Shown one piece after another: positions 6,001 through 60,490 of a stretch of 64,000 nt of DNA. Below the pieces are notes generated by a model. The model did no database searches, was not told the DNA's origin, and saw nothing but the letters and a program-made list of their open reading frames with translations. A program made the position numbers and the translations under genes. Every line of letters starts with the position of its first letter. Positions within the stretch are counted from its first letter, which is position 1. This DNA is from Lineus longissimus (Eukaryota; Nemertea; Pilidiophora; Heteronemertea; Lineidae): contig NC_088319.1 of assembly GCF_910592395.1 (NCBI RefSeq), positions 7,256,001-7,320,000 of the forward strand. The letters run 5' to 3'.

Positions 6001-6039
6001 TATATCATTTTATGGTCAGACCAGCAATTGTCAATGATC

Positions 6040-6607: not shown

Positions 6608-6632
6608 TGGCGACACTGCCATTGGTGAAAAA

Positions 6633-38050: not shown

Positions 38051-38464
38051 TCATCTTATGACATACACTAAATAAATTTTCTGCATCATCTTTAACATCT
38101 TTAACATCAAATATTTCAAAATTCTCGGGTAACATTCATCTTTCTTGTCAATAACCTCTCTCAAAAAAATATTATATAGAAACTTGGACTTTACTTTCCG
38201 TAATTCAACATCCTGTACCATGAATACATTATTGTTATCAGTGTCAAAATTATGAACCCAAATCTTATTTATAATCACATCAATAAACCCTCTCCATTTG
38301 AACCATTCGGTTGCTTTTAGTCCCACTGATTCAAAAGGTATCACTGTTTTGTCTGGTCTTAGTAAATCTGAAATATAATTTATCTCTACTTCCTTCCAAT
38401 GTTTATAAAAGATCATTCTTTGATTAATTTTGATTAATTTATTGTACCATAAATTTCCTTCCAA
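38051..38464 (-). pseudogene. L1-like ORF2 C-terminal fragment, source of the satellite
   Basis: The minus-strand frame reads LWYNKLIKINQRMIFYKHW, ISDLLRPDKTVIPFES and further residues with the 'LW.N..i...ifykW...GI..i.DLl' pattern of the region after RT in L1-like ORF2. Parts of the same reading (KHWKEVGINYISDLL) recur inside the satellite units at 40.4, 52.1 and 53.4 kb. Only here does it extend further (ELRKVKSKFLYNIFLREV), so this is the most complete copy. Confidence 0.65.
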
Positions 38465-39264
38465 TGTTTATAAAAGATCATTCTTTGATTAATTTTGATT
38501 AATTTATTGTACCATAAATATGTTTTTCCCGAGCCACGTGCTTGCAGGCGCCGCCTCCTTTGCCTAGTGAGCCAATCATATAACATTTCATATTGTAGCA
38601 TGTGATGTATGTTTTACCAGACTATTATGTGGAAGTATTGTCCTTTGCTGGATATGGGGTACGGTTCACTTCAATAAGACAAATGTGAACAATGCAAGTT
38701 TGATAAAAGAATCAATTATTCTGTTAACCCGTTGACATGAAGGTGGCAGCACCATACTGTAGTGACTCTTAAAGGACCAATAGGGATTACACTACATCTC
38801 CCTTTCTATGTTATTTCTGAACTTAGAACTGAACATTCGTGCACTTTGATGTGGCTTGAAACACGTTGAAAAGAAAAGTCTGACTTATCTTAGACATCCA
38901 AACATGATACATGAAAGTCCATACTTTTAGTTTAAACCAGAAATACAAAATTTAGGACATAACCTGGACATGCGTCATAGAGGTTACATAACACTGCGGA
39001 ACCTGAAATTTGGTTGACGGAAATATAGCGTCTAAGGCTTTAAGATGCCTTCGCAGTTTATAAATCCAAGCGATCTACTGGTTTCACTAGTCCGGTTGAT
39101 CTCCTAATGTCGCTATCGGTCACCTGTAGCTGATTACAGGTAGGCATCAGTCACTTGAGGCTGATTTATACCATTGGGCATGATTGTCTCTTAGACTTCT
39201 ACAGTCTGCATAGATCTAACATTATTGTTATCAGTGTGAAAATTATATCCCCAAATCTTATTTA

Positions 39265-40355
39265 ATATGTAAAGAGCAAGCTCTAGTGAACTCACACAAC
39301 TGTTTGACATGGGGGAGCCCCCCCAAACCCCCGTCCTTCTGACATATTTAGCCAGTACATTGGGGGATGAGTCCCCCAAACCGCCTCCCCCATTCTCTGA
39401 AAGTGACAGGTTTTAGTCAGTGCATTGGGGGAAGGCCCCCCCCCCAACCCCCCCCCCATTGGACTCTAAAAATAGAACTCCTTGGAGACGCTGAACAATA
39501 AGGCCCCATAAAGAGATAGTCCCCGCACCGGTAGCTGTCTCATATCTGCGGACAGAAGCAGCTCTTTGTGGTGAAATAATAATTGAATTTTCCACCAGCT
39601 AGCCTAGATATTTGTGTATGTTTCTTCAACAGTACGTCAATAACCAATTTTTGTAGCTGATATATTCTTAATTCTTTGAACGCGTTTTTCTGGATTCGTT
39701 TGGCGCCAAAATCAAGAATGGTAAATTAACGATCTTAACACTTGAGGCGCTGATGTCGTTCCGGAACGGTAGATGCTAAATCGGATAGCCAGGCGGTACA
39801 GGAACTCCTGCACTCTGACCACGTGACCTACATCATTACTTCACAGTTCCGGCACTGGGTCCAGTTTGGAAGTTACTAGAAATCACGTGACTGGATCTGG
39901 ATTTAGTAGTGTTAAAACTGACTTTTTTGAAGTAAAGTACGTAAATCGAGAAGAAGAGGACGTTTGCTTTGTCTGGAATGAAATGTCACGACGTTGTCCT
40001 GTATGTCCTAGCAGACGATTTTTAAATACATGATGTCCCACACCCGCACTTCAGTGGCGCCGGTGTGAATAAATCTACTTGTGTGAATGGTCAATGGCTC
40101 ATGACGTCATGAAATAATTGCGTCACGAGAAAGGAAACAATGGGAATCACGTCCGACGTGGTAACTGTGGGTGCGGTGCGTTGTGAATGCAGGATCGGCC
40201 AACGCGCGGCCCGTATGGAATGCGACAAACTGTACCGGAACCAGAATTGTCATGGGTCTACACAAATTTTTTCAGATTCGATGGACATGATGGATATATG
40301 AATTTTGTTTACACTTTATACATACGTAACCATTACACTCACTACGTTGTGTGAG
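39265..40355. mobile_element. 1091-bp insertion in satellite unit 2 with TTA duplication
   Basis: Compared with the other units the sequence departs after CTTATTTA and returns at TTATAATAACATCC, so TTA (39262-39264 and 40356-40358) is duplicated. CTCACACAAC near 39291 is matched by inverted GTTGTGTGAG at the right end. A TTA duplication would suit a non-autonomous Harbinger-like element, but the left end has ~26 extra bases before the inverted repeat. It contains C/G-rich runs near 39310-39460 and no gene. Confidence 0.6.
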
Positions 40356-41047
40356 TTATAATAACATCCATTAACCCTCTCCATTTGAACCATTCGGTTC
40401 CTTATAGTCCCAGTGATTCAAAAGGTATCACTGTTTTGTCTGGTCTCAGTAAATCTGAAATATAATTTATCCCTACTTCCTTCCAATGTTTATAAAAGAT
40501 CATTCTTTGATTAATTTTGATTGATTTATTGTACCATAAATTTCCTTCCAATGTTTATAAAAGATCATTCTTTGATTAATTTTGATTAATTTATTGTACC
40601 ATAAATATGTTTTTCCCGAGCCACGTGCTTGCAGGCGCCGCCTCCTTTGCCTTAGTGAGCCAATCATATAACATCTTATATTGTAGCATGTGATGTATAT
40701 TTTACCAGACTATTATGTGGAAGTATTGTCCTTTGCTGTGTTAGGAGTACGGTTCACTTGAATAAGACAGATATAAACAATACAAGTTTGATAAAAGAAG
40801 CAATTACACTGTTAACCAGTTGACATGAAGGTGGCAGCACCATACTGTAGTGACTCTTAAAGGGGCAATAGGGATTACACTACATCTCCCTTTCTAAATT
40901 GTCTATGTTAATTCTGAACTTAGAACTGAACGTTCGTGCACTTTGATGTGGCTTGAAACACGTTGAAAAGAAAAGTCTGACTTATATTATACATCCGAAC
41001 ATGATACATGAAAGTCCATACTTTTATTTTAAACCAGAAATACCAAA

Positions 41048-41349
41048 GGGGCTGTTCTGTTAAGGAACATTCCTGTGATATGTGATCTGTGGGAAAACGG
41101 TTATACTCACAATCCTGAAACTTGCAGGGATGATACCTTGGTTTGAAAGATTAATGATGGCATAAAAAAAGATTTTTTTTCGAACTAATTAGTTAAAACA
41201 ATGGAACTTTAAACCCTCAGAAAATGCAGAAATAATTGGAATTAAAAACATGTAGCCTGGTATTTTTATTGGCAAGACAGTTAAGTTCAAGATAGAAAAG
41301 AACAAAATCCAAAATATTGATTAGAAAGTATTTAAAAAGCAGTTACAGA
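41048..41349 (+). repeat. Left TIR of transposon 1
   Basis: About 300 bases, from GGGGCTGTTCTG to AAAAAGCAGTTACA, inversely repeated at 51477-51777 with scattered differences. Confidence 0.9.
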
Positions 41350-42014
41350 AAGTAAAGATATACAGAAAACATGTCGACTTTTGGCAGAAATCAGTCTTGT
41401 GTGACTCAGTGTATTTATAAGGCAGTTATGTCACTCTGAGGTTTGGACTGTTCCATTTATCTGCTGGGGCTGGCAGCCCACAGGCCAGGAAATACTCAAA
41501 CTTCACCTCGATAACACCATGTGCATGGAAGTTCCAAAACTGAACCTCTGAAGCTGCATATGAGTTGGTCTGTTCAGGTTGGATATCTTTTAAAGAGTTC
41601 ACATCAGAATCAACAAGAACAAATCAAAGGCTTTTACATACAAGTAACTGCATTGTATGGGAAATGTATAACAATAGGTGTTATAGAGGTGAAAGAAGAG
41701 TATTTGCACTATGGTTCAAGTTGACTCAATTATGTGAATGAAAGGTTGGGGTAGGATTACAATTTACATAAACATGTCTTGTTTGGTGAGGGAAAGGTTC
41801 ATTAGAGAAGCAGATCATGGGCCATGAAAAGAAACTGACATAACTTGGCTTAGTGGTTTGTAATGGACAACGCAATTTGAGTTTAGTAGGATAGAAAAGA
41901 ATGACAAGAAAGTTCCCCACCCAGATCCTATTATGATCTACATGAACATGTAGGCCTGCCTATATCTACCATGTATATTCTTCACATTGCAATTTTGACT
42001 GTCAAACTTGCAAG

Positions 42015-42691
42015 ATGGTTTTGCACTTGTGTGAGGATTGTGGGCAAAATATCTTTGACAGATATGGCATCAGTAACTTCCGGCGCCATAAGCGACATTA
42101 TTTTGGGAGGAATACTCCACCTGGTCAATTTTGCCACCATTGCGGTCACATGTTTTGCAGCAAAGAGACATTTGCCCATCATCTGTGCCCTTTTACATGT
42201 ACCCCATCTTTATTTGAGCCATACAAAAGACTTCGAAAGCCTAAGGATGCCGCTCTTTTGACTGCAGCACTTGCAAAGAATAGTTTTGAAGAACAGGTGC
42301 TGATTTGTAAGTCTGCAGCATGGGCACTCCCAGGAATATGGCCATTAACATTTGTGTCAACGCGCATTTATTGCACTGCAATGGATACGCTGAAACGGAT
42401 CTCTTACGTGAATGGATATAAACAATTGCAATTAACATTAAAAAAGGATACTAAATTCACTTATGATGCAAATGTCTGCATCACTGATGAGTTGGATAAC
42501 AAATCGTACTACCTCCAGCCCCCATGGACAATGCCAATGAAGTCTGTCTATGGTATTACCTTCTCCCTCATTAACCAAATGGTTGAATTAAGGAAGGTCA
42601 GTTGCAGAGTTCGATTTTTCCTAGCAGTAGACAAGTTCAAGGAAGCCAGCCAGAGCCACTCAATACCACAGCAAATGCATTATGGGCACAG
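42015..42691 (+). CDS. USP-DDE transposase 1, exon 1 (zinc finger region)
   Basis: The ATG at 42015 starts MVLHLCEDCGQNIFD, followed by a second Cys/His cluster CHHCGHMFCSKETFAHHLCP (residues ~38-58): one or two zinc fingers, probably DNA-binding. Next comes RLRKPKDAALL and a region with LPGIWPLTFVST and YYLQPPWTMPM (~100-180), conserved in transposon 2 (IPDIWPFFFTGG, YNLAPPWTTPL). Two donors are possible: AAG/GTCAGT at 42595 or AG/GTAACT at 42691. Only the second is in phase with the acceptor at 43937. The last ~30 residues then come from an inverted-repeat arm and are not conserved. There is no known counterpart for the WP region; I infer that it belongs to the transposase N-terminus. Confidence 0.75.
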
Positions 42692-43445
42692 GTAACTCGA
42701 AAAGTAAAGTGTCCTTCTGACTTGGCATGTGTGATTGGGGCATGTGTGATTGGACCCAAAGACAGATAGGAAATAATCCATTTGATTGCGAAAAAAATGG
42801 ATGCAACTCTTTCAAAATATCAAATATCAAAACTTTTAATCCTTCTTGAATAGACAAGTTCAACCAAGGCTTGGACAATAGATGGCTTGCGAAAATAAAT
42901 GTCGGCCATTTTCTTAGCCACTTTCTACAGGCAACTTTTGTTTACCATGACATAAAAGTATCACTAGACAAACTTATTGAAACAATCTTGAAGTTATTCA
43001 TGTCTTACAATACAATGTCCATGATGGATGTTCCGAATGATTTTGATGATTAATGGATTTAAAAAATGACTTTTATGTCATGGTAAACAAACGCTGCCTG
43101 TGGAAAGGGGCTAAGAAAATGGCCAACATTTATTTTCGCAAACCATCAATTTAACACTCTATGTACACCTGGCAAATGCCTTGAACAATACAGAAAGGAA
43201 AAGGGGTAAAAATTGATTCTTGAAAATGTTCCATTGTTTAGGTCCTGAAAAATGAGAAACAGTTGCAGTTCATCCATTTAAAAAAAAACTAATGGAACAT
43301 TTTGTACCTTTGTTGAGGTCCAATCACATACAATCATGTGCCAAGTTTGAAGGGCACTTTACTTGGACTTTTTTAAAGTTAAATCTATGCGCGTAGTGCA
43401 TTTGCTGTAGTAAACGTGCCTCTGGCTGGCTTCTTTGAACTTGTC
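42630..43445. repeat. Nested inverted repeat in intron 1 of transposon 1
   Basis: Outer arms: 42630-42760 and 43320-43445 share GACAAGTTCAA(G/A)GAAGCCAG, CAGCAAATGCA and GTGATTGGACC in inverse order. Inner arms: 42881-42960 and 43069-43147 share TTGCGAAAATAAATGT and TTTACCATGACATAAAAGT, which looks like a MITE of ~267 bp. A minus-strand ORF (43727-43359) with CHFCWG and CTACKG cysteine pairs runs out of the outer right arm; its nature is unknown. Confidence 0.75.
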
Positions 43446-43937
43446 TGTAGATGGTTTGCAAAGTACTTTTTGCCATTTTGTTATCCCCTTTTTAGTCTCG
43501 ACCTTTAAGACCCTAGCAGAACTTGGGTCTTGATTCTTTCTCTGTTGTTCTGTGTAAGAAAGCCTTCCCTTGCATGCAGTACACTTGGTTCTTGTCCAAA
43601 GTAAGTTGGAACCGGGCCCAAGTATTGTTAATAGGTGCCTACTAGGAAACTCAGGCATGTTTCCCCAACAGAAATGACACTTGGAGGCTTGATTATCCCC
43701 TTTGCACAGGCAACTGAAGTTTACCATGACATAAAACCTAAATAGAGTAAACTAATCAGGGCGACAGCTAATCCTAAACATTGCCGTTGGGGCCTGTTGC
43801 AGCCTTTGACTGATTTGCATGTTTTTTTCCTTATGAGTATGCTAACTTATACACTAATATTGTTAAAATTGTTTGATGCATGCCAAAGTCATGCCTTCTT
43901 TTCGATTTTGCATGGGTTTTTCCATACATGGTTACAG

Positions 43938-45430
43938 TGAAGAGATGGAATATCAATTTGGGGAAAATGTGAATGTCAGTGATGATGAACTCAACAATGA
44001 TACCCCACCAGCTTCTGATGCTGAACCAGCCTCCGATGCCACACCTGATTCATATAGACCGGATGGACCAGATCCCGGACCCACTCCTGACACTGAACCA
44101 AGTCCAGATCCTGCATCCACTCCCAATGCCAGATCCGGAGGCATTCCAGAGGATGGACCAGATAATGCTTCTGATACTGAACCAAGTCCAGATCCTGCAT
44201 CCAATCCCAATGCCAGATCCGGAGGCATTCCAGAGCATAGACCAGATCACAGACCCCATCCTTACACTGAACCAAGTCCAGATCTTGCATCTACTCCCAA
44301 TCCCAGATCCAGAGGCATTCCAGAGGATGGACCAGATCTCCCTCCTGATACTGAACCAAGTACAGATCCTGCATCCACTCCTAACGCCAGATCTGGAGGC
44401 ATTCCAGAGGATGGACCAGATCTCCCTCCTGATACTGAACCAAGTCCAGATTCCCCACCCACTCCCAACGCCAGATCTGCTCCACACACTGGATCGTCAC
44501 AGACTACTGGAGCAGCTCCAAATGCTAGATATGCTGCTCCAAGTGCTAGATGTACTGATGCAGATGTTGAGTACTCGTATGGGGAGAGTGATGCTCAGTA
44601 CGACACAGGATACCAACGACACACATGGCCTTTAGCAATGCGTCAGGCCGAGAACTGCTTCAGGAAACCCTGGATGATGACCAAGGAGCAGCTGAAAAAT
44701 TGCACAGGACTACAAGTTGAGCACTTCTGGCATCTTGTCTGGCTACAAAGAGCCTCAGTAGAAAGAGATCGTGGCCTTGATGTTGCAGCAAAAGTAGTTC
44801 TGTTCCGTTACAAAATGAGGTCTAACCCTGACTTCAGGGACTTGTCAGCAACTTTTCAAGTTACTCTCTCAGTGGTCAGTGATATTTTCTGGAGGCAACT
44901 GACATTCAACCTCTTCTCACATCCATCAATTCCTGTTCTTTTCTGGCAGAGCAGCAGCACAGAAGCTGAACGGCGAGACTTTTTTAATTTCATCAAAGGA
45001 CACGAGTCTCCGTTTCATAAGGAGCTATTATCCTTTTTCCAAGACCCTGACGGCAAAGATCGCGTAGGTGTAGGACTGTCTTTGGATTCCAAGAAGGTCA
45101 GGACCCAGAGCTCCAGTGACTTTGAGACCCAGAAAAATCTTTTCTTCTCCAAGAAAGGAGGACACTGTGTGACATTTACAACACTGACAGACACGTGCGG
45201 ATATGTGGTGGCATCCATGCCGATTGCTGCTGGATGTACCCCTCGGTGTGGGGATAGCCAGCTTGCTGGACTTGAGCTGAGACGAGATGGTGACACTGGG
45301 CTAAAATCAGTTCTTGCTGGGACGGATGACCATTTCATCGTACTCTCAGTTGATAAGGGGTATGTGTTTCAGCCTCATAATCTCAACTCCCCCAATGTCA
45401 TCAACTTGAAGGAATGGTGTGAGGAGCATG
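43938..45430 (+). CDS. USP-DDE transposase 1, exon 2 (linker, HTH, first DDE part)
   Basis: The acceptor GGTTACAG/T at 43937 gives EEMEYQFGENVNVSDDE. A Pro/Asp-rich linker (44000-44560) holds about five degenerate copies of a TEPSPDPASTPNARSGGIPE unit. Then come RHTWPLAMRQAENCF, an HTH-like segment FRYKMRSNPDFRDLSATFQV and DIFWRQLTF (as in HTH_Tnp_4), and the catalytic core: first Asp in LSLDSKKVRTQ (nt ~45084), GGHCVTFTTLTDTCGYV, GDSQLAGLE, and second Asp in VLSVDKGYVF (nt ~45352). This resembles IS5/PIF-Harbinger transposases (D...ADKGY...E). The conserved reading ends at 45430 inside the codon after EEH; beyond it a stop follows (LRN*). Confidence 0.8.
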
Positions 45431-48123
45431 GTTTAAGGAATTGAACCCGAGGCGGAGGACCTTGGTTGAGTTACCAAGACACTCGAGGGTGGAGCTAAAA
45501 TACAGTCCAAACCCGAGCCAACAGGCGAGGGTTTGGACGAAATTTTAGCTCCAAGGTCCGAAGCGGAGGGTTCAATTTCTATTCTAAAATACCTCAAACT
45601 TAAAAAGATAGGCCACGAAAATAACTTGAATATGTGCGAATTTGGCAAATTCCATCCATCGCCGGCCCGGCCGGAGCGCCGGTAGCACCGTTGTTTACAT
45701 TATGTTACGGCAACGTTACAAAAAATGAGACATGTATATTTTGTAAAGCGCGTAGGAAGTCCGCATCGGCTCGCTCAAGTGATGCTAAAATCCGCGCAAA
45801 TGGGCTATTTGGAGGGTTTTTCTCGGCAAATATGTGTAGTGCTCATTAAAAAACTTAGGGTGGTTGATGCTTCCTTGGCTGATTTGTGTTTGAAGCAGTG
45901 TTTTGAGAGCCTCAAACTTCTGAAGTGAGCTGAAATTCCATTGACGTGACGTGTTCATGGTTTCCACATTTTAGTGCAACCCGAGGGAACTTTGGTAGAG
46001 CATCTTGGTTGCGTGTCCAAAACACTCTGCTCTCAGAACGAGGCTTATGCATTTTCCATTTAAAAGTTGACTTTACGGTACCAAAGTATTTTAGAATGTC
46101 GAATCATTTGGCCATCTGATGGCAATGATCCCATACTTCAAGTTCAGAATGGCAACATCACCATGATAGAATCACCAAACAATAAACTACTGACCTGCAA
46201 CAGTCGGGCAGTTGTGGGTAAGCTTCGCTTTGCCGTGGAGGCTTTTCACGGGGCTATCAGTGACGACAAAATCATTGAAAATGTACCGCACCAATTCTTG
46301 TTACCCCTAGGTGAGGACTTCTGCAAGAAATACGGCATACCAGTGCAACATAAAGATGCAACCCGTTTGTCCTTAATATGGCTATCTGCTATTAACATCT
46401 ATAATCAGTATCATCACAAGTTCCACATAAAATATGTCGATGGTGAAAAGCAAATTAGATTTGCACATCTTCTTAAAAAACGCCTTAACATGGAAAACTT
46501 TCTCTCGGATGAGGCCATTTTCTTGGACATTGGTCTAGATCACTTTCCAAGGTCAAATTCAAGAACATGGAGTAGCTTACCTGCTAGTGAACTTCATCAA
46601 TTGAGGACACAGTTGCATCTGCCAGTGGTGAATCAAGACAATAGTGACATTTTCCTCGAGTTACCCTTGGGACCTTACCTTAACCGACGGGCTTTGCAGT
46701 ATATTGCCCATTTGAGACAAACAGAGATCGCCACGCAGGTAAGAACTTTTACCTCAACTCCCCCAATGTCATCAACTTGAAGGAATGGTGTGAGGAGCAT
46801 GGTTTAAGGAATTGAACCCGAGGCGGAGGACCTTGGTTGAGTTACCAAGACACTCGAGGGTGGAGCTAAAATACAGTCCAAACCCGAGCCAACAGGCGAG
46901 GGTTTGGACGAAATTTTAGCTCCAAGGTCCGAAGCGGAGGGTTCAATTTCTATTCTAAAATACCTCAAACTTAAAAAGATAGGCCACGAAAATAACTTGA
47001 ATATGTGCGAATTTGGCAAATTCCATCCATCGCCGGCCCGGCCGGAGCGCCGGTAGCACCGTTGTTTACATTATGTTACGGCAACGTTACAAAAAATGAG
47101 ACATGTATATTTTGTAAAGCGCGTAGGAAGTCCGCATCGGCTCGCTCAAGTGATGCTAAAATCCGCGCAAATGGGCTATTTGGAGGGTTTTTCTCGGCAA
47201 ATATGTGTAGTGCTCATTAAAAAACTTAGGGTGGTTGATGCTTCCTTGGCTGATTTGTGTTTGAAGCAGTGTTTTGAGAGCCTCAAACTTCTGAAGTGAG
47301 CTGAAATTCCATTGACGTGACGTGTTCATGGTTTCCACATTTTAGTGCAACCCGAGGGAACTTTGGTAGAGCATCTTGGTTGCGTGTCCAAAACACTCTG
47401 CTCTCAGAACGAGGCTTATGCATTTTCCATTTAAAAGTTGACTTTACGGTACCAAAGTATTTTAGAATGTCGAATCATTTGGCCATCTGATGGCAATGAT
47501 CCCATACTTCAAGTTCAGAATGGCAACATCACCATGATAGAATCACCAAACAATAAACTACTGACCTGCAACAGTCGGGCAGTTGTGGGTAAGCTTCGCT
47601 TTGCCGTGGAGGCTTTTCACGGGGCTATCAGTGACGACAAAATCATTGAAAATGTACCGCACCAATTCTTGTTACCCCTAGGTGAGGACTTCTGCAAGAA
47701 ATACGGCATACCAGTGCAACATAAAGATGCAACCCGTTTGTCCTTAATATGGCTATCTGCTATTAACATCTATAATCAGTATCATCACAAGTTCCACATA
47801 AAATATGTCGATGGTGAAAAGCAAATTAGATTTGCACATCTTCTTAAAAAACGCCTTAACATGGAAAACTTTCTCTCGGATGAGGCCATTTTCTTGGACA
47901 TTGGTCTAGATCACTTTCCAAGGTCAAATTCAAGAACATGGAGTAGCTTACCTGCTAGTGAACTTCATCAATTGAGGACACAGTTGCATCTGCCAGTGGT
48001 GAATCAAGACAATAGTGACATTTTCCTCGAGTTACCCTTGGGACCTTACCTTAACCGACGGGCTTTGCAGTATATTGCCCATTTGAGACAAACAGAGATC
48101 GCCACGCAGGTAAGAACTTTTAC
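45382..48123 (+). repeat. Perfect 1371-bp tandem duplication inside transposon 1
   Basis: Sequence from CTCAACTCCCCCAATGTC (45382) recurs from 46753 with no difference that I could see, including non-coding sequence. It covers the end of exon 2, the intron-like insert and part of exon 3. At the 46752 junction the frame does not continue (a stop follows within ten codons), so the first unit cannot be translated through. Confidence 0.9.
45431..46094 (+). other. Intron-like insert in the DDE domain (copy in both duplication units)
   Basis: Against transposon 2, which is continuous here (NGCFIIWPS), transposon 1 has 664 extra bases starting CATG/GTTTAAGG and ending TATTTTAG/AATGTCG. Removing GT...AG joins EEH to ECRIIWPS in frame. 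Inside are an inverted repeat (GAATTGAACCC at 45441 with GGGTTCAATTTC at 45565) and the pair ATTCTAAAATAC / GTATTTTAGAAT, so it may be an inserted MITE that works as an intron. The second copy is at 46802-47465. Short ORFs inside are not genes. Confidence 0.6.
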
Positions 48124-49933
48124 CTCAATATCTGAGTATTGGGATGCAATGACAGCTCTCCCTGCTTCTTCAACCCTTTACTACACAACTGTAATAAATG
48201 AACCAAGAGGTTGGAATAGAGAGAAGTACTTCCAATGGCCATCAACAGGAATAACCTTCATCACGCTGAAGATTCCGTCTGCCAACCGTTCCAATTCAAG
48301 CCAATCCAACTTCAAACCTCCTGTCTTGGCATTTTCTCAGGAGCCCTTGCATCATCTTGGCTTTACAGAGCCAATGCGATATTTGTGTGGCTGGAAATGT
48401 GGCGCAGGATGTTCCAAGCCTGACATAGGATCACGTGTACTGTGTTCAGATGCTCATGTCCTTGCACTTCTCATCTTTCTTTGTGCAAATGTGCAATATA
48501 GGCCTATCATTAGAAGGTCACACCTTTGTGATCCCAAGTTGCCGATGATTCTACAGCCTAGCTACTGCGGCCCAATGCAAAATAGAAGGTTCCACCCGTA
48601 TTCCAGTAACGCAACACCTGGACCTGGCAGTTATCGCCAAACATCTGGAACTGGCGGCCGTCGCTCAACACCTGGTACTGGTAGCCATCACCCACCACCT
48701 GGAACTGGCGGCCGTGGTCCCACACCAGGTACTGAGAACCACAATGCAACACCTAGAAGTGATAGACAACAACCGACATCTGGAAGTGACAGTCATCCCC
48801 CGACCCCTGGAAGTGACAGCCATCACCATACACCTGATACTGGCAACCATCATCCGACACCTGGTACTGGCAGCAATCATCCGACACCTGGTACAGGTAG
48901 CGATGGCTCTTCACCTGGTACTGAGAACGATGATGCGACACGTGGAACCGACAGCCATTACCCGACACCTGGACGTGACAGTGATCACCCAACACCAGGA
49001 GGTGACAGACATCGCCATACACCTGGTACTGGCAGCCGAATTCCGACACCGGGAACTGACAGTGATCACTCGACACCAGGAACTGACAGCCATCACACAA
49101 CTCCTGGACCTGCATTTATTGGACTTGTAAATGATGCAAACACATGCTACTGCATTTCTGTTGTACAAGCTCTGAAACACGTTGATGTCAACAACCACAT
49201 ACAAGCTGGAAATGTTTTTCTAGGCAATCTGTTTCAAAACATGTGTGCACAGATGCCAAGTGCAGGTCCGTTCTCAGTAATTCCTCTGGTTGAAGCAGTC
49301 AACGAATCAATGGTTGGACAAGGTTATACAATGCCTAACTTCCACGATGCAGGGGATTTCTTGTTAACACTTATTGATAAGTTGTCCATTGAAGATGGCT
49401 ACCTTACAACTTGGCCAGCAGAGATGACATGTCCAGCAGGTCATGAAACCCGACAGTTGGTTGGTGTCAATGGCTCCATCCTGCAATTGACTATTCCAGT
49501 GGCAGATGAGTTTTCTGTTAATGAGATGTATGTGCAACATTTTCAAAGCTTAGACTTTATTCCCCTTGTCTGCCAATATATGAACAGAAACCGCCCTTGC
49601 GGTAGAGAGGGGATTGGTCTGCAGACATGCTTGGGGGGTCAAGTTACCATAGTAGAACTGAATCGTGCTCGTCACATTCATGCAGGGAATGTCAGAAAGA
49701 TAATGACAAAGATTCAAGAACCCCATGATTTAAATGACCAGGATGTTGTTGCTGTAATTTGTCATGCAGGATATAGATGTGATGCAGGACATTGGTTTGC
49801 TTATCTGAAGGATGATAACCGTGTGTGGTGGAAACTTGACGATGATCACCCCGTGATACAAAGATCTCCGTGGGTTGATCAGGGGGGACATATCACTGTG
49901 AACATTCTTTTTTTTATGGCAAGCAGTGACTGA
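47466..49933 (+). CDS. USP-DDE transposase 1, exon 3 (DDE end, linker, USP domain)
   Basis: Splicing 45430 to 47466 continues the protein: CRIIWPSDGNDPILQVQNG, the catalytic Glu in FAVEAFHGAI (nt ~47609), LIWLSAINIYNQYH, and a conserved region KYFQWPSTGITFITLKIPSANRS, YLCGWKCG, RRSHLCDPKLP. A Pro/Thr/Gly linker follows (48590-49110; TPGTGS units). The C-terminus is a ubiquitin-specific protease domain: Cys box GLVNDANTCYCISVVQ (Cys ~49144), zinc-type CPAGH, and His box RCDAGHWFAYLK with WWKLDDDHP (His ~49790, Asp ~49838). Exons 42015-42691, 43938-45430 and 47466-49933 total 4638 bases, an exact open frame of 1545 residues. Length is modest for a USP domain (~270 residues). The role is not known: it could stabilise the transposase or remove ubiquitin from chromatin. 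Confidence 0.8.
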
Positions 49934-50387
49934 CCATAAATTGTTAATTGCATGGAACTCTACCTCTGTTGCACTGCGAGACATTCTAAAAAGGTGATTG
50001 CGATTTCTTTACATTGATGTTCCACGGAATCATGGCTGTTGCGACATAGGGATACTACATATTAGCTTCTAAAAATCTTTCGTGGTTACTAGTTTCACAC
50101 AAAATTGTTGTTAAGCTGATTTCCATTCCCCTATCGCAAATCATATGGATGGAGCGCTAACGCCACGCCATTACTTAGTCATCAAGAAAACAGCGACCTT
50201 ACTGGAGATTTCAATTTCCGTCTTGTCGACAAGAGACTGTTTTGGGAATTTTCCAGCACTGCTTCGATTTACCTTGTGGTTAGTTAGATCTTGACCCACG
50301 GTGCCCCCTGCCTGGATTTGGTGGTTGGATAGTTACTGACCCCAGATGATCGATATTGGATGATGAATATGGAAATCAAATATGATC

Positions 50388-50644
50388 AAATATGGAACTA
50401 GGAATGGGGAACACCCTTGTGCATATGACACTGGACCACTGGATATGATTCAAATATGGAAGTACGAATGGGGAACACCCTTGTGCATATGACACTGGAC
50501 CACTGGATATGATTCAAATATGGAAGTACGAATGGGGAACACCCTTGTGCATATGACACTAGACCACTGGATATGATTCAAATATGGAAGTACGAATGGG
50601 GAACACCCTTGTGCATATGACACTAGACCACTGGATATGATTCA
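50388..50644 (+). repeat. 64-bp tandem repeat, 4 copies, in the 3' part of transposon 1
   Basis: Unit starts AAATATGGAAGTACGAATGG and contains CACCCTTGTGCATATGACAC; copies begin at 50388, 50452, 50516 and 50580 with one to three differences. Confidence 0.95.
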
Positions 50645-51476
50645 AGATCAAGATTGGTAAGAAAAGCAATTCATTTTTAAACACACTGCACATACTCATT
50701 TTCCAACACGTTTATCCAGTGCAACGGCAGCATCAGGACAATATTTTTTGATGCTATCGCAACCCTAATAAATGCATGTATGTTACACAAGAATCATTAA
50801 GGGTAAAGTCAATTTCATACAATTATTGCTAATGTTGAACTTGGGAGGTCATTATTGATCAGATTGATGCAAAAACCTTGGTGGTCAAGATGACCTGATG
50901 GCCAATTTATGCCATTTTACCTCTGTGACGCTTAAAAGTAGTTCAAATTGAATACCTCCATGACGTATTATGTATAGTCATAAATGTACATGTAATCATG
51001 ATATAAAATTGATGGAAATCAGGCCAGTTGTCATGGAATAATAGCACTTTTTGAAACAAAAAGAATGAACTGGGCATTACCAATCCAAATCAATACTGTT
51101 CACTTCAGTGAAAGGGAACCAGTCTGTCAACAAAATGTAAATTCACCCATTCCATAATTTTTGTATTTTGAATTGCTTCTGGTGCTAAACACATCATTGT
51201 CTTCATTTGTTTTTGTGTAGAATGCCAGTGTGTCAACAAGTCAGTTTCTATTCATTGTCCATAGTCAGTGAAACAAGCCATCCATGTATACTTATCCATA
51301 GTAGGCCTAAGCACATCTGTGTAGATACTGCAGTGAGTGTCCTCTGCCACTGGCCCAACTACATCCCCTTTACTGACAATGGAATAGCCCAAACACCAAA
51401 AGGCTCAATTCCACAGCCTAGTCACACTTGGCTGATTCCAATAACAAGTTTGCAGATTTTGAACATATTTACAGTT
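50645..51476. other. 3' non-coding part of transposon 1
   Basis: No gene seen. A short stretch (GGCCAATTTATGCCATTTTACCTCTGTGAC region near 50900) is a fragment of the GGCTCACC-family monomer in inverse orientation. Confidence 0.5.
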
Positions 51477-51777
51477 TTTGTAACTGCTTTTTAAGTACTT
51501 TCTTATCAATATTTTGGATTTTTTTCTTTTCTATCTTGAACTTAACTGTCTTGCCAATAAAAATACCAGGTTACATGTTTTTAATTCCAATTATTTCTGC
51601 ATTTTCTGAGGGTTTAAAGTTCCATTGTTTTAACTAATTAGTTCCAAAAAAAATCTTTTTTATGCCATCATTAATCTTTCATACTAAGGTATCATCCCTG
51701 CAAGTTTCAGGATTGTAAGTATAACCGTTTTCCCACAGATCACAAATCACAGGAATGTTCCTTAACAGAACAGCCCC
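51477..51777 (-). repeat. Right TIR of transposon 1
   Basis: Inverse of 41048-41349; ends ...AGAACAGCCCC. The next bases TTTAGGACATAACC are satellite sequence. Confidence 0.9.
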
Positions 51778-53943
51778 TTTAGGACATAACCTGGACATGT
51801 GTCATAGAGGTTACATAACGCTGCGTTACCTGAAATTTGGTTGATGGAAATATAGCGTCTAAGGCTTTAAGATGCCTTCGCTTTTTATAAATCCAAGCGA
51901 TCTACTGGTTTTACCACTCGGTTGATCTCCTAATGTCGCTATCGGTCACCTGTAGCTGATTACAGGTAGGCATCAGTCATTTGAGGCTGATTTATACCGT
52001 TGGGCATGATTGTCTCTTAGACTTCTACTGTTTCTGCGTAGATCTTACATTATTGTTATCAGTGTTAAAATTGAAACCCCAAATCTTATTTATAATAACA
52101 TCCATTAACCCTCTCCATTTGAACCATTCGGTTGCTTTTAGTCCCACTGATTCAAAAGGTATCACTGTTTTGTCTGGTCTTAGTAAATCTGAAATATAAT
52201 TTATCCCTACTTCCTTCCAATGTTTATAAAAGATCATTCTTTGATTAATTTCGATGAATTTATTGTACCATATATTTCCTTCCAATGTTTATAAAAGATC
52301 ATTCTTTGATTATTTTGATTAATTTATTGTACCATAAATATGTTTTTCCCGAGCCACGTGCTTGCAGGCGCCGCCTTCTTTGCCTTGTTACTGTTTTGTC
52401 TGGTCTTAGCAAATCTGAAATATAATTTATCCCTACTTCCTTCCAATCTTTATAAAAGATCTTTGATTAATTTTGATTAATTTATTGTACCATAAATTTC
52501 CTTCCAATGTTTATAAAAGATCATTCTTTGATTAATTTTGATTAATTTATTGTACCACAAATATGTTTTTCCGGAGCCACGTACTTGCAGGCGCCACCTC
52601 CTTTCCCTTGGTGAGCCAATCATATAACATCTTATATTGTAGCATGTGATGTATGTTTTACCAGACTATTATGTGGAAGTATTGTCCTTTGCTGGATTGG
52701 GGGTACGGTTCACTTGAATAAGACATTTGTAAACAATGCAAGTTTGATAAAAGAAGCAATTACACTGTTAACCCGTTGACATGAAGGTGGCAGCACCATA
52801 CTGTAGTGACTCTTAAAGGGGCAATAGGGATTGCACTACATCTCCCTTTCTAAATTGTCTATGTTATTTCTGAACATGGAACTGAACGTTCGTGCACTTT
52901 GATGTGGCTTGAAACACTTTGAAAAGAAAAGTCTGACTTATCTGAGACATCTGAACATGATACATGAAAGTCCATACTTTTAGTTTAAACCAGAAATACT
53001 AAATTTAGGACATAACCTGGACATGCGTCATAGAGGTTACATAACGCTGCGCAACCTGAAATTTGGTTGATGTAAATATAGCGTCTAAGGCTTTAAGATG
53101 CCTTCGCTTTTTATAAATCCAAGCGATCTACTGGTTTCACCAGTCCGGTTGATCTCCTAATGTCGCTATGGGTCACCTGTAGCTGATTACAGGTAGGCAT
53201 CAGTCACTTGAGGCTGATTTATACTGTTTGGCATGATTGTCTCTTAGACTTCTACGGTTTCTGCGTAGATCTTACATTATTGTTATCAGTGTTAAAGTTA
53301 TAACTCGTAATCTTATTTATAATAACATCCATTAACCCTCTCCATTTGAACCATTCGGTTGCTTTTAGTCCCACTGATTCAAAAGGTATCACTGTTTTGT
53401 CTGGTCTTAGTAAATCTGAAATATAATTTATGCCTACTTCCTTCCAATGTTTATAAAAGGTCATTCTTTGATTAATTTTGATTATTTTATTGTACCATAA
53501 ATATGTTTTTCCCAAGCCACGTGCTTGCAGGCGCCGCCTCCTTTGCCTTAGTGAGCCAATCATATAACATCTTATATTGTAGCATGTGATGTATGTGTTA
53601 CCAGACTATTATGTGGAAGTATTGTCCTTTGCTGGATTGGGGGTACGGTTCACTTGAATAAGACAGATGTAAACAATGCAAGTTTGATAAAAGAAGCAAT
53701 TACACTCTTATCCCGTTGACATGAAGGTGGCAGCACCATACTGTAGTGACTCTTAAAGGGGCAATAGTGATTACACTACATCTCCCTTTCTAAATTGTCT
53801 ATGTTATTTCTGAACTTAGAACTGAACGTTCATGCACTTTGATGTGGCTTGAAACACGTTGAAAAGAAAAGTCTGACTTATCTCAGACATCTGAACATGA
53901 TACATGAAAGTCCATACTTTTAGTTTAAACCAGAAATACTAAA

Positions 53944-54316
53944 GGGCATGGACACTATCCAGATTAGGTGACATAGGTTTTACCAAGTAATTTTTGAACT
54001 ACTTGGATGAGGTTTATAAAGATAAAAATGGATATGGATGGTAGAATATAGCTAATAGCACATTATAGGACATTAAAAAAATTCATATTTTGTAATTAGG
54101 ATGCTTTTATTGGAGATACGGTAGCAGAAATATAAGATGTTGAAATCGTACCAAATAATACAAATTGAATTAAAAAAAATAGCTAGGCCTATAGAATACC
54201 ACCAGTAAAGTTGATCTACATAAAAACATCGTCGAAAATCAACCCTTTTCCCAACAAAATAATGAAAATGGTAAGAAAATTTATGTAAGAGGGAGGGAGA
54301 ACACATTACAGAAGAT
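53944..54316 (+). repeat. Left TIR of transposon 2
   Basis: GGGCATGGACACTATCC to about AGGGAGGGAGAACACATTACAG; inner ~290 bases matched inversely at 59664-59966. Confidence 0.88.
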
Positions 54317-54772
54317 CCTGCCATGCCTTTTAAATGGATTGATCAATTTGAAATGGATTATTGAGGTGATGTAAGTGTTGAGTAATTCTGTCCGGCAACA
54401 TAACAAATGGTTAGCAACTGATTTCTAATAACCTTTTGGTTTCAGGTTATCTTGCAAGTGTATTGAACTCTTCAAGTACATGTTTGTAGCAAAATGTTGT
54501 TGTGACTTTTAACATAGAAAACTTGTCATTTTTTGAGAAACAAGACCTGCCACTTGAACATCATTGAACCCAATGATTTTATTACATAATACTAATAGAC
54601 TTATGTTTCAGGTTTGTCTCTTTAAAATTGTTGTTATGGTTTTGATTGTACTCACAATGCCAAAGTAATAGTTTGAATGATCTAGGAATAGGCCTATTAT
54701 GACAAAAACCCCAAAGATTGGATGATGTATTAAATGGGGGCACTGTGATACACAGAACTTTTTCATACACAG

Positions 54773-55326
54773 TTGTACTCTTGGACATGGTGGTGGACGA
54801 ATGGTGTGTCTTGGCACTGTGTGTTCACCATGGCTGACATACGACCCGACTTGCAGTACACTTACTGCTTGCACAGATTTGCAAGACACCTGCATCTTCT
54901 GACACATCGGTGTCCATTCAGGCCAGACAACCTTTGTCAAAGGATAAGACTTCGAAAGCCGGACAACGTAGATGATGTAAAACGAGCCCTCTAGTCAAAT
55001 ACTGTCATAGAAAGATATATAGTGTGAAAGCCGGGAACCTGGCCATACCAGACATTTGGCCTTTCTTTTTCACTGGGGGATTGACACTCAATACCACAGC
55101 ACAGAGGACCCTTCAAGATATTGGAATTGTGGACCCTTACAAAGAAATAGACCTACTGCTAAATGAATATGGCATATTTTCCTACCCAGGATATTATGTA
55201 TTATATGATGAGAACACGCAAATGGAGTACAACCTTGCACCACCATGGACAACTCCATTGGCCGGCGACTTTAGCTGCAGCATCAACAGTAGTATTGTAA
55301 CAACCTCTAGATCTGCAGCACAAGTG
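54773..55326 (+). pseudogene. USP-DDE transposase 2, exon 1, frameshifted
   Basis: Two frames are needed. The first has a degenerate Cys/His segment ending LLTHRCPF and RLRKPDNVDD, aligning with HHLCPF and RLRKPKDAA of copy 1; the first CxxC of copy 1 is not recognisable. The second frame, from about 55024, has IPDIWPFFFTGGLTLNTTAQ and YNLAPPWTTPL, aligning with LPGIWPLTF and YYLQPPWTMPM. It ends at a good donor (CAAGTG/GTAAGT at 55326), phase 0. The exact start is unknown. Confidence 0.7.
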
Positions 55327-55707
55327 GTAAGTTGTGACAAATATTGGTAAAAAAGACAACGGCAGAATAGACAACAGAAGAACAAAAAATTAAAAAGATA
55401 AGTTATCTTTTTTCTGATTAGGAAAAAAGACCAGCATCTACTACAAAGTAGGCCTAAAAAGATTGTCTTGCTTTTGCCTCTTTTCCATTTACTTTTTCAC
55501 CGTTGTCTAGTACTTGTTATTTCTTCTGTTTTCAATTTTACCGTTGTCTTTTTTACCTGGCATTTTCCCCAAGTATAACCATAAAAGATTAGAGAGTTTA
55601 GAGAACAAAAACTATAAAATCATTATAATTAGAAAGCGCAAGGAAGTCCGACTTTGTATTTTTAAGGTCATCATTAGCGATACTAAGACTCATATTCTTT
55701 CATTCAG

Positions 55708-58311
55708 GCATCAGTTTCAAATGCGACAGAAAATGAAATTGCAATGGAACCAGCTGCGGTACGGCCGCTAGTTTGTCCGACATTCAACTGGTTGGATAGA
55801 ACCGCTGCAATGGATAATGCAATGGATACATCTTGTTCTTTGGATAGTCCACCAGCTTCGATACAGGAGGCCACAATCGCTGCAACCGATATTGCAATGG
55901 ATACTGATAGTTCTTCTGACAGTCCGCCAGCTCCGATACAGGGCTCAACCGCTGCAACGAATAAAGCCACTTCGGAAAGTCAACAGCCTCCTGCCAATGA
56001 GGAACACTATGTTTATGCCACCACATATAAGGATTATGATAGGAGATATCCGCGTCATAACTGGCCTACAAACCTCACCCAGTCATGTAACAGTTTTATT
56101 CAGCCATGGGAAATGTCCGAACTACAAATCACGAATTCCACTGGATTATCTGTTAGGAATTTCTGGGAACTAGTTTGGCTCCAAAGAGGGACAGTATTTC
56201 AACAAGGGGGATTAGATATTTCTGCCCGTGTACTGTTGTACAGATATAAGATGAGAAGTAATCCGGACTTCATTGACTTGTCAGCTATTTTTCAAATAGC
56301 CAAAACAACTGCAATCAACATATTCTGGAAACAGCTGACATACCATGTCTTTCATCACTGCAAAATTCCAAATGTGTTCTTTTCCCCAACACTTCAAGAT
56401 ATGGATGCGGTCTACAGAAGCATGAAAGAAGGAGAGTCACCTTTTCACAAAGAGCTGCTATCCTATTTCAAAGATCCTACTGATCAGGACAGGGAGGCTT
56501 TCAGACTGTCAATGGACTCCAAAAAATTCATGACACAAAATTCAATGGACTATGAGGCCCAAAAGGACGCATACTATCCGAAAAAAGGAGGACATTGCTT
56601 TGCAGCAACTGTGCTGGTAGACACAACAGGATACGTAGCTGCAACTCTGCCACTGGGGGCTGCAGCCACTCCTAGATGTGGTGATAGCCAACTGAGTGGG
56701 TTGGAGCTGAGAGTCGAAGAGGCAGAGCATGTTCCAAATGGAATGAGAACACTTTTACGTGGATCCAGCGCCTACTTTGTTGTCTTGGCTGTGGATAAGG
56801 GATATATCTTTGTTCCCTGCAATGCTAGTCAACAAAATATCGAAAATGTGAAAAATTGGTGCCAGCAAAATGGCTGTTTCATCATTTGGCCTTCTTCTGA
56901 TGATGATGAAATTGTGCAGGTTCAGAATGACAAGTTCGTGATGGTCAATTCTAATGGGTGCTCCTTATTGACGAAAAACAGTGGGGCTATTGTTGGAAAA
57001 CTAGGTGCCAGGGTGGAACAATTTCATGGTGCAATCAACCAAGATAAAATTCTTCGTGATGTGCCATACCAGTACATGCAGCCATTGGGTGATGAGTTTT
57101 GCCAAAGATATGGTATACCTCTAGATTGCAAAAACAATCCCAGGATTACACTGATCTGGCTCGCTGGCATAACAATCTACAATCAGTACCACCCATAGTT
57201 CAAACTGAAGTTTGCTGACACTCCGACCCAAGTCAGATTTGCAAGCATTGTTAAACATAGACTGAACATGACAAACTTTTTGTGCGATCCCGATATCACT
57301 TTCACTGTGAACTTGAACAACTTTCCACGCTCGAACAGTACTAGTACGGTCTGGCAACATGTCCCAGTCTCAAGGGTTGGCTATCTACGGAGATTGCTGG
57401 ACATTCCAGTCATTGATGCCTGGTTGATGAAGGAAATGTGCCTTGGGCCATATTTAGTAAAAAGAGCCTTTTCATACCTCTGTCACTTGCGCAATGTGGA
57501 AGTTAGCGATGAGAATCAGATGAATCTCATCACAACCATTGAGGAGTACTGGGATGCTATTGGTGAGGTACCAGATACAACGAGGATGTATTACACAACA
57601 ATAGCAAAAGAACTGGAAAAATGGGATCCAGTCAAGTATTTTCAATGGCCCAGCGCAGGTCTGAGTGTCATCACGATGAAAATGCCATCTGCCAACAGGA
57701 GCAACCGAAATCAGATGAACTTCAAAAAGCCTATGTTGGTCTTTGCTGTAAACGGAGTGGACTACTTGAGATTTACAGCACCTCTGAATAAGTTATGCGG
57801 TTGGAAGTGTGGCACACATGACTCAAAAGATTTGGGCAGCCGAATGCTTGGGGCAGATGCTCATGTTCTTGCCCTTCTCTTGCTACTTTGTTGCGTAAGG
57901 GATCATCATCATCAAGTCATCAGAAGAAGCCATTTATGTGACCCAAAACTGCCCATACGACTGCAGCCACGATTGGGCTCTCAACTACCCCCTCCAATTC
58001 CTATCACGTCACCGGATGGGCTGAGTCGTCCTACAAGTACAACTACTGCAAGAAGGCCTACAATCCCTCTGACGGCTACAACTACACCTGGTGAGCAAGG
58101 ACCACCAGTGAGCAGTCAGAACTCTTCGCCCCCTAGTGCTACAACGACGTCCCCAGATGAGCAGAGCAGTCACACAACTATACCTTATGGTCAGAACTCC
58201 CAACTCCCTAGTGCTACAACAACGTCCCCAGATGAGCAGAGCAGTCACACGACTATACCTTATGGTCAGAACTCTCAACTCCCTAGTGCTACAACGACGT
58301 CCCCAGATTAG
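55708..58311 (+). pseudogene. USP-DDE transposase 2, transposase exon with nonsense codons
   Basis: The acceptor TTCATTCAG/GCA at 55707 is phase 0 and matches the donor at 55326. The linker is short and Ser/Ala-rich. Then RYPRHNWPTNLTQSC, HTH-like YRYKMRSNPDFIDLSAIFQI, first Asp in LSMDSKKFMTQ, GDSQLSGLELR, second Asp in VLAVDKGYIF and Glu in GARVEQFHGAI: the D, D and E of copy 1 are all conserved, and no insert interrupts NGCFIIWPS. A TAG at 57196 (YNQYHP*) falls in a conserved stretch, and the reading continues in frame (KYFQWPSAGLSVITMKMPSA, LCGWKCG, RRSHLCDPKLP). The Thr/Ser linker has ~66-75-base repeats (TTTSPDEQSSHTTIPYGQ) and a TAG at 58309 where sister repeats have GAG. Confidence 0.82.
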
Positions 58312-58439
58312 CAGAGCAGTACTAGATGTACAACACCACTTACCAGAACTGAACCACCACCAACCAGCAAGGAGCACGCACAGAAAGACAGAGACCAGGA
58401 ACTGTTCGCCTGACTTCCTCTCAGCAGTGTCCATACAGG

Positions 58440-59234
58440 GGACTGGACAATGACGCCAATGCTTGCTACTGCATTTCTGTCTTGCAGTGTTTAAAGCAAA
58501 TCAGTTTTGATACGCACATTCTTCCTTCAGAAGATGCAGTCACAACAGTGTTCTTGAGGATGTGCCGCAACATGCCTGGACGACCGTTTTCAGTCATGCC
58601 TTTGATAAATGCTGTGAACAGTACTATTCAGGGAGCGGGGTACGCAATGCCTCTTTTCCATGATGCAAGCGAATTCCTGTCAACCCTTGTTGCTAAACTC
58701 GACACGCCTCCAGGATACCTGACAACATGGCCAGTGGAGATGGTCTGCCCTCAGGGACACTGCAATCAGGAGATTGTTGGGTAAAGTGGAAATACGCTAT
58801 GTCTGAATATACCTCATTCTGGGGCAGTCTCCCTTCTAGCTTTATATGAGAAATACTTTGAGGATTTGGAGCCTGTGGCTCTCCGATGCAAGAGTAAAGC
58901 TAGGAATAGAATTTGTGGACTACAGGGGAGCGGGTTTCAAATGTGTTGTCAAGGACAAGTCACCATCATCGAGCTGAACAGGCGTCTAACTTTGGCTACA
59001 ACGGAAAAGACAACAACCAAGATCCTTCCATCCGAAAGAGACATCTTTCCTGGCCCGTCCATCCTTGCAGTAATCTGTCATATAGGGGCCAATTGTGATA
59101 TTGGCCACTGGATTTGCTACCTAAAAGACGGTAACCAGTGGTTGAAACTTGATGACAGTCGCCCGTCAGTGCTGGCTTCCCCATGGGACAGTCAAGGGGA
59201 CCAGCTGACCATCAACATTGTGTTATTTCGATGA
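58440..59234 (+). pseudogene. USP-DDE transposase 2, USP protease domain, broken
   Basis: In another frame than the linker, GLDNDANACYCISVLQCLK is the Cys box (catalytic Cys kept, the usual Thr before it is Ala). FHDASEFLSTLVAKL and CPQGH follow as in copy 1 (FHDAGDFLLTLIDKL, CPAGH). TAA at 58782 interrupts EIVG*SGNT; the same frame continues to QVTIIELNR, the His box CDIGHWICYLK and WLKLDDSRP, and stops at 59234. Homology to copy 1 extends to the last residues (ITVNILFF / LTINIVLF). Confidence 0.82.
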
Positions 59235-59663
59235 AAACTTGGAATGGAATGGAATTGGGATAAGTGCCTTCAATGGAGTATTTAGTTTGATTCCTGTAAG
59301 GATACCTGCCTGGAACTGCTAGTGCTGTTATGTAACAATATTGTTGAGGATACAAGCAACAAGTAATGCTCTCATTTGGAATATAAATATTGCTTTTAAA
59401 GGTAAGAAAACATTCAATTATCAAGTAAGAAAGAGTGCTCCTTGAAGACCCCATTCTTGCAGTTTGACTAATTAATTAAAAACAACTCTTGGTAAAAAAG
59501 CCAGCTAAAACTTGATTTTGTATGAGTCAATGGTATTTTTAACTGTGTTGTGTTGGTTGACAATAAGTGAGAAATTGAAAGGAGGGTCGCTTCTAAGGAG
59601 TAAATCAAGCATGACATAAGAACCATATAAAATGTCAGGACATAATAGTCATTCAGAAAATAG

Positions 59664-59966
59664 AGGCTCTTCTGCAATGTGTTCTCCCTTCCTCTTACAT
59701 GAATTTTCTTACGTTTTTCATTATTTTGACGTGAAAAAGGGTGATTTTTGACGATTTTTTTATGTAGATCAACTTTACTGGTGGTATTCTATAGGCCTAG
59801 CTATTTTTTAAAATTCAATTTGCATTATTTGGTACGATTTCAACATCTTATATTTCTGCTATCGTTTCTCCAATAAAAGCATCCTAATTAGAAAACATGT
59901 ATTTTTTAATGTCCTATAATGTTCTATTCTATTATTGCTATATTCTACCATCCACATCCATTTTTA
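59664..59966 (-). repeat. Right TIR of transposon 2, outer end missing
   Basis: Inverse of about 54027-54316, with several small differences; breaks at CCATTTTTA/GCTCAGC. Confidence 0.85.
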
Positions 59967-60490
59967 GCTCAGCTCAGCTGACGGAGCTAGTCAAATAGCT
60001 ATTCGATTGGTGTCCGTCCTTCCATCCTTCCATCCATCCTGCCATCCTTCCATCTAGCCATCTGTAGACAAAGTTGGGCATTTTGTAATCATACAACCGA
60101 GGCACTTCAAATCTAGTCTTGCTTATAAACATCGCAGAAAATGTTGCTTACGGAAAAAATTTGGGCGATTCGACTCAAATTCAGCTCCCCAGGGGGCAAA
60201 ATGCGTAAATGAAAAAACAATTTTTTGACGCTCTATTCCAGCAGATAAAAGCTTGAAATAAAGTTGAAAAGGTCTTCATGATACAGAAGGTTTGATATAA
60301 AATAGATTAGTGTCGATTTATATCACCAGTTGGCGGTAGTGAGCAAAACTGTTGTTTGACCCCGGATGATTCCCTTTAAATTTCCCGCCGAGGTTACCTG
60401 GAGTTCTATCATCAAGAAAATGGCGGTGACCTTTTTATTTCTACTGGAGCGATACCTTGCTAAAGCCCTAAAACCAGAACGGACAGATAG
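59964..60490 (+). repeat. TTAGCTCAGCTGAC-family repeat, copy 3
   Basis: Starts TTAGCTCAGCTCAGCTGACG, then GTCCGTCCTTCCATCC and GGGCATTTTGTAATC as in the copies at 19999 and 36299. It abuts and truncates the right TIR of transposon 2. The end is not defined. Confidence 0.65.

Follow-up and report, generated by a model that had tools for sequence, protein, structure and literature searches.

The described systems closest to the locus considered here are the Spy transposons, whose original description is said to be that of Han et al. 2014. What marks Spy, a group of the PHIS superfamily, is that its members insert between AAA and TTT and do not duplicate the target (PMC4482050, PMC11304231). The 182 Spy transposons reported come from invertebrates only; intact copies measure 1165-5910 bp and have one open reading frame (ORF), which encodes ~700 amino acids (aa) in the five that are depicted or tested (PMC11304231). 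A 2025 paper treats Spy within ISL2EU (PMC12730594). Here we analyze a 64,000-nucleotide stretch of the genome of the nemertean Lineus longissimus (NC_088319.1, positions 7,256,001 to 7,320,000, forward strand; hereafter the window, whose numbering is used throughout). It contains an apparently Spy-like transposon, element 1, whose predicted DDE transposase is fused to a ubiquitin-specific protease (USP). Three relatives are compared with it: element 2, which lies in the same window, and two proteins from a protein collection, P0001 and P0002.

Domains of ubiquitin or SUMO proteases have been described from several transposon groups, namely Helitrons, Ginger1 and Mutator (PMC9741609, PMC2836005). 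The Ginger paper already proposed that ubiquitin pathways take part in transposition (PMC2836005), and the VTD deubiquitinases of Helitrons may prevent the breakdown of proteins required for transposition (PMC9741609). An earlier note on this DNA, made from its letters alone, had proposed the fusion in element 1 and stated that it knew of no fusion of a USP with a DDE transposase. That statement has to be qualified, since the Trichomonas vaginalis protein XP_001314237.1 combines Transposase_11 and Peptidase C19 in one chain (PMC2836005). Among the literature matches listed, it is the only precedent for a transposase-USP pairing, and none of those matches, which come from outside Repbase, reports a USP in a Spy-like element. 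The words "ubiquitin" and "protease" are absent from the main texts of PMC11304231, PMC4482050 and PMC12730594. To judge from these sources, a transposase-USP fusion is not unprecedented, and the USP-bearing Spy-like lineage is the variant that is new here.

Results

A predicted transposase-USP fusion in element 1

The features of element 1 on which the fusion rests are as follows.

41048..51777, + strand: element 1, a putative Spy-like transposon of 10,730 bp with a USP-fused transposase, delimited by alignment of its terminal inverted repeats (TIRs) and by its flanks against the empty site
42015..42596, + strand: exon 1, N-terminal Cys/His-rich region (MVLHLCEDCG...), with a phase-0 donor AAG|GTCAGT
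43945..45430, + strand: exon 2, acidic/Pro repeats, helix-turn-helix (HTH) region and first two catalytic D; acceptor inferred from the frame
44084..44477, + strand: in-frame 84-nt repeats, acidic/Pro-rich, 4.6 copies
47466..49933, + strand: exon 3, catalytic E, remainder of the transposase, linker, USP and stop
48612..49112, + strand: Pro/Thr/Gly-rich linker of 27-nt repeats, 18.6 copies
49106..49930, + strand: USP domain, with C1250, H1465 and D1481 (numbering of the 1511-aa model) as the presumed triad

The modeled gene has three exons (42015-42596, 43945-45430 and 47466-49933) and would encode 1511 aa, in the order N-terminal Cys/His region, acidic repeats, HTH, DDE transposase, Pro/Thr/Gly-rich repeats and C-terminal USP. 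Exon 3 sits in an uninterrupted ORF of 832 codons from stop to stop (47435-49933), which opens ahead of the catalytic E and closes where the USP ends.

The catalytic residues of the transposase in this model are D575, D664 and E738. The D, D and E that the earlier note had read in element 1 (found across the members in SLDSKK or SMDSKK, VDKGY and VE-FHG, respectively) are invariant in 4/4 aligned members. HTH_Tnp_4 and DDE_Tnp_4 from Pfam each match three of the four members, below threshold, at expectation values (E) up to 1, and the DDE_Tnp_4 match in P0001 (residues 159-202, profile positions 1-44) begins at the first catalytic D. These sub-threshold matches are consistent with a PHIS-type DDE transposase.

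For the protease, Pfam gives UCH (PF00443) at E 2.2e-10 on the exon-3 ORF and at 3.6e-12 in P0001. The two pieces of element 2 give 9.8e-5 (22.5 bits, against a cut-off of 23.9) and 7.6e-6 (26.1 bits). A USP profile built from the three copies and compared with sequences in the PDB matches USP12 (1e-8), USP46 (2.3e-8), USP14 (3.8e-8) and USP36 (6e-8); two stretches each pass for USP12 and USP46, and the alignments listed, which are of two USP12 chains, take in both the Cys and the His box. The C-terminal USP with Cys and His boxes claimed earlier is thus borne out, and the ~270 C-terminal residues, on which the claim had been staked, carry a UCH match (7.3e-12 on the last 275). These Pfam and PDB matches also rule out that the USP motifs arose by chance. 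Cys, His and Asp are invariant in 3/3 USP members, the defective element 2 included, as are the Asn preceding the Cys and a CPxGH...C...C set. We assign the triad, including the Asp, by analogy with USP7, and assume that the CPxGH...C...C set may be a reduced zinc finger.

Recurrence of the fusion in diverged relatives

The second element of the window, which the earlier note overlooked, carries the same fusion in a decayed form.

53944..59969, + strand: element 2, a diverged and defective relative with the same fusion; outer right TIR not found
55687..58311, + strand: transposase of element 2; the intron-2 site lacks an intron; in-frame stop at 57196-57198
58434..59234, + strand: USP of element 2, in a different frame from the transposase; stop at 58782-58784

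TIR arms of element 2 at 54020-54319 and 59664-59969 are 89% identical over 307 columns. Compared with element 1, identity is 50% over 660 columns in the transposase and 46% over 267 columns in the USP. A search of the protein collection with the transposase region of element 1 returned two proteins: P0001 (955 aa, 53% identical in that region), in which transposase and UCH lie in one uninterrupted ORF, and P0002 (822 aa, 50% identical). The USP is carried by three of the four members, P0002 being uninformative since its ORF ends too early. The proposed fusion thus recurs both in a relative ~50% diverged, element 2, and in the single ORF of P0001, and since the pairing returns in two distant relatives, it looks like a real lineage. 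At the level of the predicted proteins, there is thus good support for a transposon-encoded transposase of DDE type that is fused to a USP. A host gene lying beside a transposon is ruled out, because the USP shares an ORF with the catalytic E inside the TIRs and is part of the single ORF in P0001.

Codon comparison of elements 1 and 2 gives identities at positions 1/2/3 of 58.8/72.3/38.1% for the transposase (636 codons) and 63.2/67.0/36.0% for the USP (261 codons). Such a pattern is the one left by selection on the protein sequence, of similar strength in the USP and in the transposase.

Wider searches added no members. A transposase profile found P0001 alone in the protein collection and missed P0002, which is part of the profile, and the USP region of P0001 found only P0001 itself, host USPs not being reached either. 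Pattern matches in viral contigs yielded no relative confirmed by alignment of the transposase (0/34) or of the USP (0/45), and those in bacterial and archaeal genome contigs none confirmed by alignment of the transposase (0/61). Because P0002 and host USPs were missed, these searches are insensitive and the absences carry little weight.

Ends, insertion site and family placement

The ends of element 1 and the copies of its target are listed below.

41048..41367, + strand: left TIR, starting GGGGCTG
51457..51777, - strand: right TIR, ending CAGCCCC at 51777
41045..41047, + strand: 5′ flank AAA of the target AAA^TTT
51778..51780, + strand: 3′ flank TTT of the target; no target site duplication
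53001..53943, + strand: 943-bp repeat unit with the empty site AAATTT at its start
38948..39264, + strand: a further copy of the repeat with the empty site AAATTT

The left TIR reads GGGGCTGTTCTG... from 41048 and the right TIR reads ...CAGAACAGCCCC up to 51777. Each is ~320 bp long, and the arms align over 325 columns at 94.8% identity, a count that takes in three bases of flank at either end (AAA and TTT); the alignment starts at 41045 because the AAA of one flank pairs with the TTT of the other. The borders given earlier, 41048..51777 with TIRs of ~300 bp, prove to be exact. When the flanks of element 1 are joined they read ...ATACCAAATTTAGGACATAACC... (...AAATTTAGGAC...), with nothing duplicated, and two element-free copies of the repeat read ATACAAAATTTAGGAC and ATACTAAATTTAGGAC; the joined flanks match the empty site save for single-base differences among the repeat copies. 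This Spy-type insertion between AAA and TTT, which the two empty copies reveal, had escaped the earlier note. It rests on element 1 as the one fully testable insertion, for element 2, whose left flank TAAA agrees with that of the empty site, has lost its right end.

Since the flanks rejoin to the empty site without duplication, families that duplicate their target are ruled out; both the 3-bp TWA duplication of PIF/Harbinger and the AT duplication of ISL2EU are absent at element 1. No YqaJ match was found by Pfam in the ORFs scanned, namely the exon pieces of element 1 and one minus-strand ORF, and no Myb/SANT domain turned up in the scanned pieces either. By its target site and by published descriptions, we place element 1 as probably Spy-like within the PHIS superfamily.

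Copies of the 943-bp repeat occupy 38225-41047 and 51778-53943, and the same AAATTT of the repeat hosts both USP transposons. The shared site could be chance or a preferred haven; as evidence of targeting it is weak, because the window holds 59 AAATTT and at least four homologous repeat sites, two empty and two filled.

Gene structure and an internal duplication

The earlier note had given one protein of 1545 residues with two introns. The two introns are supported by comparison with the relatives; the length is not retained, the present model having 1511 aa. At the junction of exons 2 and 3 the predicted protein reads CEEH-E-CRIIWP, and the relatives without the intron read WCQQNGCFIIWP (element 2) and WCADNSCFLIWP (P0001). 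Exon 1 resembles the N-terminus of P0002 (35 columns, 48.6%; E 6e-8 when the two sequences are compared by themselves), which has an exon-1-like start and the transposase within a single ORF. A homologue of exon 1 lies in element 2 at 55024-55266 (34.6%, E 2e-10); the phase-0 donor there, GTG|GTAAGT, resembles that of element 1, and the homologous upstream domain spans more than one frame. The zf-C2HC5 match of Pfam in exon 1 (0.0025) is under the cut-off.

Further features lie within the gene:

42629..43446, strand not assigned: insertion with inverted-repeat ends (31-nt arms, 94%) within intron 1
45382..46757, + strand: copy 1 of a tandem duplication, reaching from the exon-2 end through intron 2 into a partial exon 3 that starts at 46095
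46753..48128, + strand: copy 2, identical to copy 1 over 1376 bp

The exact 1376-bp duplication, a feature missed earlier, was seen in element 1 only. Both copies run from the last part of exon 2 through intron 2 into the beginning of exon 3. Because the duplication thus holds a partial first exon 3, the coordinates of exon 3 hinge on which copy is spliced, and splicing to the copy-1 acceptor at 46095 would give a transposase that ends before the USP. Identity this exact means that the duplication arose very recently or else is an artefact of the assembly, and no functional conclusion is drawn from it.

The intron-1 insertion holds further inverted repeats inside, and its end is spanned by a Cys-rich, 130-aa stop-to-stop ORF (43359-43751, - strand) that has no Pfam match at 0.01. 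Between the end of the gene and the right TIR, 50380-50645 is a tandem repeat with a 64-bp unit (4.2 copies, 98% matches).

Other features in the window

4140-9998, + strand: Helitron (DUF6570 7e-31, PIF1 helicase 6.6e-19, Helitron_like_N 4.4e-13)
16093-17100, + strand: endonuclease domain of the long interspersed nuclear element type (Exo_endo_phos_2 2.1e-11)
26686-29841, - strand: tyrosine recombinase (Phage_integrase 1.4e-12) and reverse transcriptase (RVT_1 4.4e-12)
33729-34364, - strand: HTH_Tnp_4 fragment (3.7e-10), probably a PIF/Harbinger relic

Upstream in the Helitron, near 4140-4200, is VPGDGNCFF, which we take to be an OTU-type Cys box; it may mark a second deubiquitinase-like domain, this one in a different transposon of the window. 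The retroelement at 26686-29841 is presumably DIRS-like.

Discussion

The reading that we favor, at a probability of about 0.45, is that element 1 is a PHIS/Spy-like cut-and-paste transposon with a single Cys/His-DDE-USP protein, in which the USP would deubiquitinate in cis, its most likely substrate being its own transposase. The sequence itself shows where the ends lie, that insertion at AAA^TTT left no duplication, that three diverged members have the fusion and that both halves are under constraint; the steps of the cycle may be pictured as follows. The transposase would bind the TIRs, make blunt ends and insert the element between AAA and TTT. The flexible repeat linker would keep the USP in the same complex, where it could strip ubiquitin in cis, most likely off the transposase itself, and the bound complex, once deubiquitinated, might escape proteasomal removal long enough for excision and insertion. 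In a minority version, the proteins relieved of ubiquitin would be those of chromatin or of repair where the DNA is cut. That the USP deubiquitinates in cis is plausible, and its fusion via a long repeat linker would make this a natural mode of action. The deubiquitinases of Helitrons have been proposed to be protective (PMC9741609).

Several observations weigh against this reading. Spy elements that are drawn with DNA-binding and DDE domains only are active in human cells (PMC11304231). Because elements drawn without a USP are active, the USP is dispensable for Spy transposition in general; its role should then lie outside the chemistry, in persistence, regulation or interaction with the host. 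At 10,730 bp, with introns and a protein of ~1511 aa, element 1 exceeds the published intact Spy (1165-5910 bp, one ORF). No USP is seen in the fourth member, P0002, whose ORF stops before the place expected for one. Of the two Pfam families that had been predicted, UCH appears on the exon-3 ORF as given above, and DDE_Tnp_4 is weak: at E 0.1 the exon pieces of element 1 give no transposase match, and the best values in the aligned transposases (0.0013 for HTH_Tnp_4 and 0.0065 for DDE_Tnp_4) are below the gathering cut-offs. The transposase profile has no match among PDB sequences at E 1, and the structures predicted by AlphaFold for P0001 and for the USP of element 1 are unusable, with mean pLDDT (predicted local distance difference test) of 36.4 and 36.9.

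Foremost among the alternatives is that the element is the same and its USP acts mainly on host proteins, such as ubiquitinated histones or repair or sensing factors at the break. A role for DNA repair factors was proposed for the Ulp1 and OTU domains of transposons (PMC2836005), and blunt joining without duplication may require help from repair. Nothing in the data points to any substrate, however, and all that the fusion indicates is that protease domain and transposase move together; we consider a mainly host-directed USP unlikely, if less so than the readings that follow.

The USP might instead be a catalytically idle module for ubiquitin binding or assembly, and its shortness (275 aa, versus chains of at least 331 aa in the USPs compared) is in keeping with this. 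An idle domain would nevertheless be expected to lose its triad, whereas Cys, His and Asp are retained in all three USP copies, even that of the defective element 2, and we judge idleness to be improbable. Slightly more doubtful still is that splicing or processing yields the transposase and the USP as separate proteins. The copy-1 acceptor at 46095, which leads into a frame stopping before the USP, would permit such an outcome; P0001 and exon 3, however, are single ORFs, and the duplication that supplies the acceptor belongs to element 1 only and may be an assembly artefact. Finally, transposons do capture host exons, but a fragment of a host USP caught by chance by one element and carried as a passenger is very improbable, given the same order in three members ~50% diverged and a codon constraint on the USP like that on the transposase.

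Returning to cis deubiquitination by a fused, functional USP, we suggest tentatively, with rather less than even confidence, that these elements form an old and separate Spy-like lineage in which the USP has become an obligate part of the transposase and deubiquitination a step of the transposition cycle. In that event, it would be the first known case of a DDE transposase in an animal that includes a working USP as an integral part. The protease domains in several groups of transposons suggest a repeated need to undo ubiquitin or SUMO signals, and in the present case the protease shares a chain with the transposase under similar constraint. Since Spy members function in cultured human cells (PMC11304231), effects of the deubiquitinase on the life of the transposase, on target choice and on repair should be directly testable.

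Element 1 resembles each of the described systems in part. ISL2EU and PIF/Harbinger are of a related DDE/HTH type, as the weak Pfam matches suggest, but they make AT or TWA duplications and usually have a second ORF with YqaJ or Myb/SANT (PMC4482050). Helitrons with OTU or VTD domains are likewise DNA transposons that bear a deubiquitinase domain; unlike element 1, they use a rolling-circle Rep/helicase with no DDE transposase, and the domain is OTU or VTD rather than USP (PMC9741609). Ginger1 is closer in layout, its transposase having a C-terminal OTU or Ulp1 protease domain, but the transposase is like the integrase of Gypsy and the proteases belong to other families (PMC2836005). The T. 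vaginalis protein XP_001314237.1 shares with element 1 a transposase and a C19 (USP-type) ubiquitin hydrolase in one chain, and differs in its protist host and in the Pfam family of its transposase, a comparison made by description alone (PMC2836005). With Spy, element 1 has in common the AAA/TTT insertion without duplication, a single transposase gene and a TIR length within the 5-691 bp of Spy. To the DNA-binding and DDE domains that make up the Spy proteins depicted, element 1 adds introns, a Cys/His region, two repeat stretches and the USP.

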